Positions 13,596 through 18,348 of a stretch of DNA of 34,628 nt are shown here, one piece after another. A model generated the notes under the pieces. It made no database searches, was not told where the DNA came from, and saw only the letters and a program-made list of their open reading frames with translations. The position numbers and the translations under genes are program-made. Position 1 is the stretch's first letter, and each line of letters begins with the position of its first letter. Origin of the DNA: Alphaproteobacteria bacterium (lineage in GTDB: Bacteria > Pseudomonadota > Alphaproteobacteria > Micropepsales > Micropepsaceae); contig SHWE01000021.1 of assembly GCA_009693985.1 (NCBI GenBank), positions 1 to 34,628 on the forward strand, given 5' to 3'.

Positions 13596-13876
13596 CCGAA
13601 GACCAGCAGCACCATCAGGAACGCCGCGTAGACCATGGGCGCCACCATGAGAGCGGCGGCGTGCTCGGGACGCCCGCGCCGATAGGCTTTCGACCCCGTC
13701 ATCGCACCGGTAGCTGCGAAGACCGGAAGCGCAATAAAGAGAAACGCGATTCCCCAGGCCGTGCCGGCGCCCGAAACCCTGGCGATCTCGACGGCGCTTG
13801 CGGCCAGCCACGCGCCAAACAAAAACAGCACCGCATCGATCACCATGCAGAGCCGGAGCCAGATCGGCGGACGCAT
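13592..13876 (-). CDS. Small three-helix membrane protein coupled to dnaE
   Basis: I do not recognise a family. The 94-residue product has three hydrophobic segments (about 10-31, 40-62 and 74-93), with a basic loop (SKAYRRGRPEH) between the second and third. The ATG at 13876 overlaps the dnaE stop by one base (TGATG). A GTG one codon earlier overlaps it by four and is an equally possible start. Translation is therefore probably coupled to dnaE. It ends in CTAG (13592-13595), in which the TAG stop of DUF5916 copy 3 is also embedded on the other strand. Confidence 0.7.
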   Translation of the reverse strand: MRPPIWLRLCMVIDAVLFLFGAWLAASAVEIARVSGAGTAWGIAFLFIALPVFAATGAMTGSKAYRRGRPEHAAALMVAPMVYAAFLMVLLVFG

Positions 13877-16800
13877 CACACCGTCTCGATTTCGGCGACG
13901 CCTTTGAGCGATTGCAGCACCGATTTGAGCTGCGGCGTCACCTGTACGCGTTTTGGAATCGCGATCTCGACTTCCTGGTTGGCATGGGCGCCGGGAACGA
14001 CGAGCGTCACCAGCCCCTTGCCGGCTTTGGTCAATTGCGCGGCGATAGCCGGAATGGGCGCGGCGTCAGTGAGCCGGATCCTCAAGCCCTCGCCCGCATT
14101 GGCGGCCGCGGCATCGAGGTCTTCCACCGCGATAGCCCGCAGCTTCAATTCCCCGTCCATCCAATCGCCGACGACGCGCACCAGCAGCGAGCGCCCCGCT
14201 TCGAGAAAGCTGCGCGCCTGATTGAGCGCTTCGGAAAACACCATCACCTCGAACATGCCAGACGGGTCCGACAGGGCAATGAAAGCAAAGGGCTCGCCAT
14301 TGCGGCCGCGGCGTTCCTGTTTGCGGATCACGGTGCCCGCGACAGTGGCTTTGACCGAAGACCGCCGCGCGTCGTTGAGAATATCCACATAGTTCGCGAC
14401 CCCGAGCCGCTTCAACGCTTGCGCATAGGAATCGAGCGGATGGCCCGAAAGATAAAAACCGATGGCCGAGAATTCCTCGGTCAGCCGCTCGTGCACCGGC
14501 CAATCATTGGTGGCCGTCAGCGGCAGGGATTCGCGCGCCATGTCGGCGCCGCCGAACAGGCTCTCCTGCCCAGCGTCGCGATCGCGCGAATTGCGCGCGG
14601 CGCTGCCGAGAATGATATCGACGGATTCGACCAATTGCTTGCGGTTCTTGTTCAGCGCATCGAAGGCGCCGGCCCTGACCAGACTCTCGAAGGCGCGCTT
14701 GTTGATCAGCTTGGGATCGATGCGCTTGGCGAAATCGGCGATGGAGCGGAACGGCCCGCCCGCATCGCGCACGGCGACGACATGGTCCATCGCCTGGCGA
14801 CCGACATTCTTCACCGCGGCAAGCGCGTAATAGATGGTTCCGCCGCCGAGCCGTTCGGCGTCGGCGGCCTTTCCCGCATCGCAGGCGAAATTGGCGAGGC
14901 TGCGATTGATGTCGGGCGCGCGCATCTCGATCCCGAGCCGCGCCGCTTCCTGACGGAAGACGTTGAGCCGGTCGGTATTGCCGATATCGAGCGTCATCGA
15001 GGCGGCGAGGAACTCGATCGGGTAATTCGCCTTGAGATACGCGGTCTGATAGGCGACTTGCGCGTAAGCCGCGGCGTGACCCTTGTTGAAGCCGTAGCCG
15101 GCGAATTTCGCCGCCTGCTCGAAAATCTGTTCGGAAATGTCGGCGGCGATGTTCTTCTGCTTGCCGCCATCGATGAATTTCTGACGATGCTGCGCCATTT
15201 CGGACGCGATCTTCTTGCCCATGGCACGGCGCAAAAGATCGGCCTCGCCCATCGTGTAACCGGCCAGCTCGCGCGCGATCTGCATGACATCTTCCTGGTA
15301 CGTCATCACGCCGAAGGTTTCGGATAGGATCGGTTCGAGCAGCGGATCGAGATAATCGGGTTTCTCGCGGCCGTGCTTGCAGGCGATATATTTCGGAATC
15401 GAATCCATCGGGCCCGGACGGTACAGCGCGACAAGGGCGACCAGATCGTTGATGTGGTCGGGCTTGAGCTTCTTGATGAGGTCGCGCATGCCCTGGCTTT
15501 CGAGCTGGAACACGCCGACGCATTCGCCGCGCGCGAGCATTTCGAAAGTGGGCACATCGCCGAAATCGGCATGCTGCGTATCGACGTGAACGCCGCGCGC
15601 CTTGAGCAGTTCTTCGGTCTTGGCGATGACGGTGAGGGTCTTTAAACCGAGAAAGTCGAATTTGACGAGGCCGGCCTTCTCCGCATCCTCGTAATCGAAC
15701 TGCGTCACCGGCATTTCGGAGCGTGGGTCGCGATAGAGCGGTACGATCTCGTCGAGCGGCCGATCGCCGATGACGAGGCCGGCGGGGTGGGTCGAGGCGT
15801 GCCGGTAGAAGCCCTCGATCTTTTCGACGATGGCGAAGAGCTGGGGAACCTTATCTTCCTGTCCCGCGATCTGGTTGAGACGCGGCTCGATGGCGCGCGC
15901 ATCGCCCAAAGTGAAATGCTTGCCGGGGGGATTGGGGATCAGCTTGGCGAGCCTGTCGACCAGGCCGAAAGGCAGCTGCATGACGCGCCCAACATCGCGC
16001 ACGGCCGCGCGCGCCTGGAGCGAGCCCAGCGCGATGATCTGCCCCACGCGGTCGCGGCCATATTTTCCCTGCACGTAGCGCACGACTTCGTCGCGGCGCT
16101 CCTGACAGAAATCGATGTCGAAATCCGGCATCGAGATACGTTCGGGATTGAGGAAGCGCTCGAACACCAGGCCAAAGCGCAAAGGATCGAGATTGGTGAT
16201 GTCCAGCGCCCAGGCGACCAGCGAGGCCGCGCCGGACCCGCGCACGCCGACCGGAATGCCGTTACCGCGCGTCCATTTCATGAAGTCGGACACGATCAGA
16301 AAATAGCCCGGGAACCCCATCTTGATGATGACGCCGAACTCGAATTCCAGCCGGTCCCAATAAAGCTGTTCTTCGGCATGAAGCCCGTGTTCCGAAAGAC
16401 GGCGCTTCAAGCCGGCGCGCGCCTGGGCCCGCAATTCCTCTTCGGGCGAAAGGCCGGATTCGGGAACGAATTGCGGCAGGATGGGAGTGCGCGTCTTCGG
16501 ACGGTAGGCGCAGCGCTGCGCGATCTCCATCGTGTTCGCGATGGCCTCGGGCAGATCGGAGAATAGCGCGGCCATTTCCTCGGCGCTCTTGAAACGATGC
16601 TCGGGCGTTAGCCGGCGGCGGTCCTGAACGTCGATGAACGTGCCTTCGGCGATGCAGAGAAGCGCGTCATGGGCCTCGTACATCTCAGCGCGGCAGAAAT
16701 GCACGTCATTGGTCGCGACCAGCGGTAAGTCTTTCGCGTAAGCAAGGTCGATCAGCTTTTCCTCGACCGCCGCTTCATTGGGCAGACCGTGGCGTTGCAA

Positions 16801-17385
16801 CTCGACATAGAGCCGGTCGCTGAACGCGGCGGACAATTTGTCGAGCGCGGCGTCGGCCGCCTGCGGCTGGCCTTCGGCGATCAGGCGGTCGATCGGTCCG
16901 CGGGGACCGCCCGTAAGACAGATGAGACCCTCGGCATGGGCGCAAAGCCGCGAGAGGCTCGCATGCGGCAGATCGCCCGGTTGCACGTCGAGATAGGCGC
17001 TGGACAGAAGCTTCGAGAGATTGACGTAGCCGACATCGTCTTTGACGAGGATCGCGATCGAAGGATAGGCGTGGACCGTGTGGACATGGTTCTGGTTGGG
17101 CGATGCGGCTGTCTCGAGGTCCACCGAGAGCGTGACCCCGACGATGGGCTGAACCCCCGCCTTCGACAGCGTATCGGCGATCTCATAGACGCCGAACAGA
17201 TTGTCGGTGTCGGTGACGGCGACGGCGGGCATGCGCATCTCGCGCGCCAGACTCGCCAATTCCTGCGGCCGCACGGCACCCTCGAGCAGCGAATAGGCGC
17301 TGCGCACGCGCAAATGCACGAAACTCGAATAGCCTTCCAGCTTCGGACTGGTTGGTTTGGGGCTTGGCTTGGATTGGACGCCCAT
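13876..17385 (-). CDS. dnaE: DNA polymerase III alpha subunit (replicative, DnaE1 type)
   Basis: This is the catalytic subunit of the chromosomal replicase. The product has 1169 residues, full length. Domains in order: PHP (about 20-300), polymerase palm/fingers (about 300-850), HhH and OB-fold regions, and the C-terminal tau-binding part. Catalytic aspartates are Asp421 and Asp423 in PDFDIDF (420-426) and Asp577 in KFDFLGLKT. VRGSGAASLVAWALD precedes the first pair. The PHP opening reads HLRVRSAYSLLEG, where metal-binding His and Asp of active PHP domains are replaced, so PHP nuclease activity is unlikely. The length and the lolCD context indicate the housekeeping enzyme rather than the error-prone ImuC/DnaE2. 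The ATG follows GAGAGTGAG. A small gene overlaps downstream. Confidence 0.97.
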   Translation of the reverse strand: MGVQSKPSPKPTSPKLEGYSSFVHLRVRSAYSLLEGAVRPQELASLAREMRMPAVAVTDTDNLFGVYEIADTLSKAGVQPIVGVTLSVDLETAASPNQNHVHTVHAYPSIAILVKDDVGYVNLSKLLSSAYLDVQPGDLPHASLSRLCAHAEGLICLTGGPRGPIDRLIAEGQPQAADAALDKLSAAFSDRLYVELQRHGLPNEAAVEEKLIDLAYAKDLPLVATNDVHFCRAEMYEAHDALLCIAEGTFIDVQDRRRLTPEHRFKSAEEMAALFSDLPEAIANTMEIAQRCAYRPKTRTPILPQFVPESGLSPEEELRAQARAGLKRRLSEHGLHAEEQLYWDRLEFEFGVIIKMGFPGYFLIVSDFMKWTRGNGIPVGVRGSGAASLVAWALDITNLDPLRFGLVFERFLNPERISMPDFDIDFCQERRDEVVRYVQGKYGRDRVGQIIALGSLQARAAVRDVGRVMQLPFGLVDRLAKLIPNPPGKHFTLGDARAIEPRLNQIAGQEDKVPQLFAIVEKIEGFYRHASTHPAGLVIGDRPLDEIVPLYRDPRSEMPVTQFDYEDAEKAGLVKFDFLGLKTLTVIAKTEELLKARGVHVDTQHADFGDVPTFEMLARGECVGVFQLESQGMRDLIKKLKPDHINDLVALVALYRPGPMDSIPKYIACKHGREKPDYLDPLLEPILSETFGVMTYQEDVMQIARELAGYTMGEADLLRRAMGKKIASEMAQHRQKFIDGGKQKNIAADISEQIFEQAAKFAGYGFNKGHAAAYAQVAYQTAYLKANYPIEFLAASMTLDIGNTDRLNVFRQEAARLGIEMRAPDINRSLANFACDAGKAADAERLGGGTIYYALAAVKNVGRQAMDHVVAVRDAGGPFRSIADFAKRIDPKLINKRAFESLVRAGAFDALNKNRKQLVESVDIILGSAARNSRDRDAGQESLFGGADMARESLPLTATNDWPVHERLTEEFSAIGFYLSGHPLDSYAQALKRLGVANYVDILNDARRSSVKATVAGTVIRKQERRGRNGEPFAFIALSDPSGMFEVMVFSEALNQARSFLEAGRSLLVRVVGDWMDGELKLRAIAVEDLDAAAANAGEGLRIRLTDAAPIPAIAAQLTKAGKGLVTLVVPGAHANQEVEIAIPKRVQVTPQLKSVLQSLKGVAEIETV

Positions 17386-17483
17386 AACTCACTCTCACGC
17401 GCCGATTCAGTGCCCGACTATCGGCCAGCCTTGCCGCCCCCGCCCACACGGCCACCGTAAGAACGCCAACGCTCCACAGAAAT

Positions 17484-17585
17484 TCATGCCAGCAGCGTTT
17501 GTCCCGCGACCGCCAATATCAAGGCCGACGCCAGAAACACCAGCATGCTCAAACCCGCCAAAGCCTCTTGAATCAACAGCGACAT
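17484..17585 (-). CDS. 33-residue single-pass membrane protein under LexA-type control (SidA-like candidate)
   Basis: A short gene with a very good Shine-Dalgarno (GGGAGG, 5 nt before the ATG at 17585). The product has 33 residues: a short N-terminus with Gln6 and Glu7, one hydrophobic helix (about 9-28, LAGLSMLVFLASALILAVAG) and a short tail GQTLLA. A TTGACA promoter element overlapped by an alphaproteobacterial LexA box lies directly upstream. Caulobacter SidA is an SOS-induced single-pass inner-membrane peptide of about 29 residues that blocks division through the FtsW/FtsN complex. Size, topology and control match that description, but I cannot claim homology from so short a sequence. It lies between lolD and dnaE, same strand, 98 bp before dnaE. 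Confidence 0.7.
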   Translation of the reverse strand: MSLLIQEALAGLSMLVFLASALILAVAGQTLLA

Positions 17586-17611
17586 CGTTTCCTCCCGCCA
17601 ATTTGAGGAAT

Positions 17612-17642
17612 GTTCTTATTATGTTCTCATTAGGGCTGTCAA
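17612..17642 (-). promoter_or_regulatory. SOS promoter: TTGACA -35 with LexA box GTTC-N7-GTTC
   Basis: On the plus strand GTTC occurs at 17612-17615 and 17623-17626, exactly seven bases apart. This is the published alphaproteobacterial LexA operator (on the coding strand GAACATAATAAGAAC). A consensus -35, TTGACA, lies at 17642-17637. Any -10 at 15-18 nt spacing (for example ATAAGA at 17619-17614, 17 nt) falls inside the box, so LexA binding would occlude the polymerase. It is the only such box I noticed in the window. Confidence 0.75.
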
Positions 17643-17655
17643 GAACAAAACAGGA

Positions 17656-18348
17656 TCAAATGGCCAGACGGGTCTCGACCAGCGTGCCCTTATCGAGCAC
17701 CAGGGTACGGTCCATCTTCTCCGACAGGGCGTAATTGTGGGTGGCGATGAGAGCGGTCAGTCCTTCGGAACGGACAAGCTGGATCAGCACTTCGAACACC
17801 CCATCCGCGGTCCTCGGATCGAGATTGCCGGTGGGTTCGTCCGCCAGCAGCACGCGGGGGGAATTGGCCAGCGCGCGGGCAATGGCGACGCGCTGCTGCT
17901 CGCCGCCCGACAATTGCGAGGGGCGATGTTCGATCCGTTCGGCCAATCCGACCAGCGTCAGAAGCCGCTTCGCCTCCACCGCAGCAGGCCCCCGCTCGCG
18001 CCCGGCGATGCGCAGCGGCATGGCGACGTTTTCCTCGGCGGTGAATTCGGGCAGCAGATGATGGAATTGATAGACGAAGCCGAGCGCCTGGCGCCTAAGC
18101 TCGGTGCGCCGCTTCTCGGGGAGTTGCGAGGCCGCCTCGCCCGCCACATAGACCTCGCCCGAACTCGGCGCCTCCAGAAGTCCGGCGATATGCAGGAGCG
18201 AGGATTTTCCGGCCCCCGATTGACCGACCAGCGCGACGATCTCGCCCGGCTTGAGGATGAGCGACACGTCCTTGAACACCACGAGCTCGCGGCTCGCCTG
18301 TTTGTAGATGCGCGTGACGCGCTCCAGCGTCAGCGGTCCATTATTCAT
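17656..18348 (-). CDS. lolD: Lipoprotein-releasing ABC transporter ATP-binding protein
   Basis: LolD powers extraction of mature outer-membrane lipoproteins from the inner membrane and hands them to LolA. The product has 230 residues. Walker A is GQSGAGKSS (42-50), the Q-loop region reads VYQFHHLLPEFTAEENV (typical of LolD/MacB types), the signature is LSGGEQQRVAIARAL, Walker B is VLLADEPTGNLD, and the H-loop is ATHN. The ATG overlaps the end of lolC by eight bases, so they are coupled. Confidence 0.95.
   Translation of the reverse strand: MNNGPLTLERVTRIYKQASRELVVFKDVSLILKPGEIVALVGQSGAGKSSLLHIAGLLEAPSSGEVYVAGEAASQLPEKRRTELRRQALGFVYQFHHLLPEFTAEENVAMPLRIAGRERGPAAVEAKRLLTLVGLAERIEHRPSQLSGGEQQRVAIARALANSPRVLLADEPTGNLDPRTADGVFEVLIQLVRSEGLTALIATHNYALSEKMDRTLVLDKGTLVETRLAI

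Follow-up and report, generated by a model that had tools for sequence, protein, structure and literature searches.

The window, by which is meant the whole stretch of 34,628 nucleotides analysed here, carries a very short gene between lolD and dnaE; the features of this interval are collected in table 1. The sequence-only reading of this DNA had proposed a tiny gene with a good Shine–Dalgarno sequence and a product amounting to little more than a membrane helix. That description holds: a frame of 33 codons is preceded by GGGAGG, and the peptide is nearly all one membrane helix (best 18-residue Kyte–Doolittle mean 2.53). Scans against Pfam and NCBIfam placed the peptide in no family above the curated cut-offs, and a LysM domain of the type found in YneA and ChiZ is absent from its 33 residues. 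No RNA family was detected by Rfam within positions 17000–18000, where an antisense RNA of an undescribed kind could still lie.

Table 1. Features of the lolD–dnaE interval, in the direction of transcription (positions in the window).
Feature	Position	Strand	Remarks
lolD, lipoprotein-export ABC ATPase	17656..18348	-	upstream neighbour; named by sequence type
Distal LexA-type operator	17643..17657	-	GATCCTGTTTTGTTC; one mismatch; abuts the -35 element and overlaps the lolD stop codon
-35 element	17637..17642	-	TTGACA
Proximal LexA-type operator	17612..17626	-	GAACATAATAAGAAC (GTTCTTATTATGTTC on the + strand); exact GAAC-N7-GAAC
Possible weak -10 element	17614..17619	-	ATAAGA; 17 nt after TTGACA, under the proximal operator; inferred, below scan threshold
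Shine–Dalgarno sequence	17591..17596	-	GGGAGG; 5 nt 5' of the ATG
Small gene, putative SidA type	17484..17585	-	ATG start, 33 aa + stop; MSLLIQEALAGLSMLVFLASALILAVAGQTLLA
CTGTGGA element	17473..17479	-	just 3' of the small gene; in 37/44 family loci
GATAGTC element	17416..17422	-	GATA[CG]T in 29/44 family loci
dnaE, replicative DNA polymerase III alpha subunit	13876..17385	-	next gene downstream; 98-nt gap

The promoter of the small gene contains two LexA-type operators. The proximal box starts 10 nucleotides past the end of TTGACA and occupies the -35/-10 spacer and the expected -10 position, upstream of the ATG. A GTTC-N7-GTTC operator had been reported earlier as overlapping TTGACA; the exact box is present, but it lies in the spacer and not over the hexamer. 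The one-mismatch distal box, which abuts TTGACA, is possibly the one that was meant. A consensus promoter scan returned no sigma-70 site above threshold. About 0.002 box matches are expected by chance in the 70-nucleotide gap. Genome-wide, the exact eight-letter pattern occurs 49 times in 2.0 Mb, against 54 times for a reversed control, so that a single match means little and only conservation gives the box meaning. Such conservation is found. The comparison took in 43 aligned promoters of the window's family, chosen because their proximal box is exact. In 38 of them a distal GTTC-N7-GTTC is present, matching fully or with a single mismatch, as against 3% of shuffles. Its second GTTC stands directly 5' of the -35 TTG in most of these promoters, and the proximal box mostly begins 40–54 nucleotides before the start codon. 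An operator of the same type precedes lexA itself: exact GAACN7GAAC was found in all 12 genomes checked, 59–191 nucleotides before the LexA domain, and is spelled GAACTAAAGTAGAAC in six of them, a spelling that recurs at several of the small genes. The operator had been claimed as the alphaproteobacterial LexA box, and both the two-box promoter conserved in relatives and the lexA boxes bear this out. Because distal and proximal boxes are both conserved and lexA carries the same operator type, repression by two opposite operators lying across the -35/-10 region is the likely arrangement. LexA was not found in the window's own genome, an assembly that is 64% complete. Elsewhere in that genome (L007, positions 1501–1515; G000:C5), a LexA-type box lies 36 nucleotides upstream of a gene that carries a radical-SAM-like motif, NPYRGCEHGCIYCFAR, and may be a further SOS gene.

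The survey of the DNA ahead of dnaE covered 61 genomes of the family, counting that of the window. An exact box followed by a hydrophobic small open reading frame was seen at 46 of the 61 loci; a profile search added two further genomes (G015 and G023), where the small gene lies at the margin of the surveyed DNA or slightly outside it, and this raises the count to 48. Homologues of lolD were found at relatives' loci too. By genus, the gene occurs in four of six genomes of the window's genus, in all 39 of the largest (g5), in none of five in g4, in one of seven in g6 and in all four genomes of three small genera. The single g6 case (G087, L076) is a candidate only: its dnaE is preceded by a promoter with TTGAC and an exact box and by a 33-residue frame, MPRPLELCGAAASFVMFLSGLVSVVTVLGALAA, which goes unrecognized by the SidA profile. 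Hydrophobic stretches ahead of dnaE in four other g6 genomes (G088, G089, G090 and G094) were considered as diverged copies and rejected, since each forms the C-terminal end of a longer, unrelated protein. In two genomes, one of g4 (G010, L065) and one of the window's own genus (G001, L048), lolD runs straight into dnaE without a small gene, and these loci are natural empty sites.

The reading frame is under purifying selection in the family. Across 44 family sequences, identity over 24 ungapped codons is 62, 72 and 46% at codon positions 1, 2 and 3, and pN/pS is 0.53 in frame, compared with 0.98 and 1.33 when the frame is shifted. The 24-codon core contains no insertions or deletions, and the DNA after the stop codon falls to 28% identity. 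Frame, Shine–Dalgarno sequence and LexA box upstream of dnaE, whose conservation the sequence-only reading had suggested examining in relatives, are thus kept, while the surrounding non-coding DNA is not; a frame lost amid conserved surroundings is the reverse of what is seen. Short frames and exact eight-letter boxes are both common by chance, and the frame might on that ground be taken for an accident, the LexA site next to it serving only dnaE. This reading has next to no chance of being correct: it is contradicted by the in-frame selection, and many species have kept the frame together with its promoter, spacing and place.

The Caulobacter protein SidA offers the closest parallel. SidA (gene CCNA_02004; PMC10769358) is a LexA-controlled inner-membrane protein of 29 residues that acts on FtsW as an inhibitor (PMC4211646). 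A search for MipZ in 70 genomes of the class yielded no Caulobacteraceae. Genomes of this family were reached by a scan with a MipZ bait sequence, and were then searched for DnaE. In Caulobacter, Phenylobacterium, Brevundimonas and Asticcacaulis, a gene for a peptide of 29–31 residues lies directly upstream of dnaE. The peptide of C. vibrioides OR37 has exactly 29 residues and its gene stands behind a LexA box in that position; relatives of it are present at this position in further genomes of Caulobacter, Phenylobacterium and Brevundimonas. The OR37 gene is taken to be sidA by size, place and operator. The order in Asticcacaulis is lolD–sidA–dnaE. Exceptions occur: some Caulobacter promoters have degenerate boxes only, the small gene is absent upstream of dnaE in Caulobacteraceae YX1, one locus ends at a contig end and the copy in Brevundimonas SSC2 looks diverged. 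Intermediate forms are present at the same locus in five further families (f103, f8, f108, f3 and f67), several of them with lolD upstream. Most other families sampled, by one or a few genomes each, showed no box-plus-peptide arrangement. A lolD–sidA pair, MQIWLKDTLALVSLFALTWMGMAWIAVLDLT, at one locus (L329, genome G286) has no dnaE in the downstream DNA examined, and the dnaE match of that genome is on another contig.

Sequence comparison with SidA, also proposed at the outset, gave a divided answer. Set directly against Caulobacter SidA, with no intermediates, the window's family shows weak similarity (hhalign P 0.02), as is expected for only about 30 residues. Intermediate families were therefore used. 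With a profile of the window's family, f103 and one member of f8 scored above nearly all shuffles; with a SidA profile, two f8 members and one f3 member scored above all of them. When SidA and the intermediates were combined, with the window's family left out, the window peptide reached 7.9 bits and exceeded 300 of 300 shuffles of both kinds; in the reverse profile OR37 SidA reached 9.2 bits and exceeded 300 of 300 and 299 of 300. Shuffle tests on membrane segments of 30 residues are rough, and some members of each group score no higher than shuffles. Searched genome-wide, the combined profile matched the window gene at E 4.6e-7; no other match in the genomes searched, that of the window included, was convincing as a second copy. 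The earlier suggestion of a SidA-like candidate is thereby strengthened. Given the same place upstream of dnaE in Caulobacteraceae, a gene of SidA size, the LexA box and the profile links through intermediates, the window gene is assigned to the SidA family, and a SidA-like function is predicted for it. Literature searches returned no description of SidA outside Caulobacter, though an earlier mention may exist.

The likeness extends to an acidic residue before the single helix. The window peptide differs from SidA in length (33 residues against 29) and in lacking the N-terminal arginines of SidA and, indeed, any basic residue, so that its orientation cannot be read from charge. Its two operators are well formed and opposite, unlike the SidA promoter, and dnaE begins 98 nucleotides further on, past conserved CTGTGGA and GATA elements, in contrast with a gap of about 25 nucleotides in Caulobacter. 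Other inhibitors share only the general plan. DidA of Caulobacter is likewise a small, single-helix, damage-induced division inhibitor, but it is longer (71 residues), SOS-independent, binds FtsN and is controlled by DriD rather than LexA (PMC4211646), whereas the window gene has LexA-type boxes. YneA of Bacillus subtilis, SosA of Staphylococcus aureus and ChiZ of Mycobacterium tuberculosis are also single-helix division inhibitors induced by SOS or damage; YneA and ChiZ have, in addition, a LysM domain outside the cytoplasm, and homology with the window peptide is not claimed.

Taken as a whole, the gene is very probably a sidA homologue that is repressed by LexA, induced by DNA damage and able to pause division through FtsW. 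The following sequence of events is proposed. (i) In undamaged cells, LexA would sit on the two oppositely oriented operators covering the -35/-10 region and keep the gene off. (ii) DNA damage would activate RecA, and self-cleavage of LexA would relieve repression. (iii) The strong Shine–Dalgarno sequence would then permit a quick burst of a one-helix peptide, predicted to insert into the inner membrane. (iv) By homology with SidA, the helix may bind FtsW, a member of the septal FtsW/FtsI/FtsN complex, and keep that complex inactive. (v) Constriction would wait for repair. A gene for FtsW is present in the window's genome, between murD and murG. YneA contacts transmembrane helix 7 of FtsW, and in AlphaFold 3 models of low confidence SidA docks on that helix too (PMC13396833).

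A different target has to be weighed. TisB and DinQ of Escherichia coli act on the membrane, and an SOS peptide of this kind would insert into the inner membrane, lower its potential and slow growth, with no particular component of the divisome as its target. In size, in having one helix and in its likely LexA control the window peptide resembles them, both E. coli peptides being SOS-linked and single-helix; the DinQ report describes an SOS-regulated, single-helix toxic peptide (PMC3567139). No sequence or locus relation between these peptides and the window gene was found, and the Rfam search revealed no RNA family around it. The conserved residues occupy fixed helix positions, which suits a protein–protein contact, while locus and profile links point to SidA, a published FtsW-directed inhibitor. 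Action on the membrane alone is accordingly thought improbable.

The position of the gene also bears on dnaE, which lies directly downstream in nearly all loci. A terminator scan of the window found none between the small gene and dnaE; one weak terminator-like hairpin, at chance level, lies inside the small frame. The missing terminator makes SOS read-through into dnaE plausible. The interval in the window has further elements. CTGTGGA occurs also in five of seven relatives that have no small gene (g4, G001 and G002) and for this reason probably belongs to dnaE, and the GATA[CG]T element is a candidate part of a dnaE promoter. The two may represent DnaA-linked control or dnaE's own promoter; dnaE probably has its own promoter in the window as well. 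In 14 of the 44 family loci CTGTGGA extends to the DnaA-box-like TGTGGATA.

These features invite the reading that the SOS promoter mainly yields extra dnaE, the small frame being a leader peptide or passenger that tunes dnaE expression; the short Caulobacter gap and the unterminated interval of the window agree with it. Several results are at odds with it. The amino acids themselves are conserved, beyond what mere translation would call for; the gene lies roughly 0.5–1 kb further upstream of dnaE in three genomes (G016, G020 and G015); in G286 it adjoins lolD with no dnaE in the DNA examined; and the empty sites of G010 and G001 have dnaE without it. A mere leader or passenger is therefore improbable. 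A bolder proposal retains division arrest as the function of the peptide: sidA and dnaE would form an ancient SOS-inducible pair in several alphaproteobacterial families, one read-through transcript coupling arrest with a rise in polymerase. This is doubtful, although it has some chance of being right.

Among SOS division inhibitors, SidA is the model for action on the septal wall machinery, but the protein is so short that homologues readily escape notice. Their constant position between lolD and dnaE provides a handle for finding them. Genes of apparent SidA type are now seen in a distant family and in several further families of the class, alongside clean natural absences that allow comparison, and the resulting set of homologues points to residues of possible importance for the FtsW contact. 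A possible link between division arrest and polymerase supply is raised. As a further observation, lexA and dnaE lie about 27–36 kb apart on the same contig in several members of the window's family (G005, G030, G066 and G067). The dnaE gene of Caulobacter is CC1926 (PMC1839093), and the published tag of lexA in that organism, CC1902, suggests a similar closeness.
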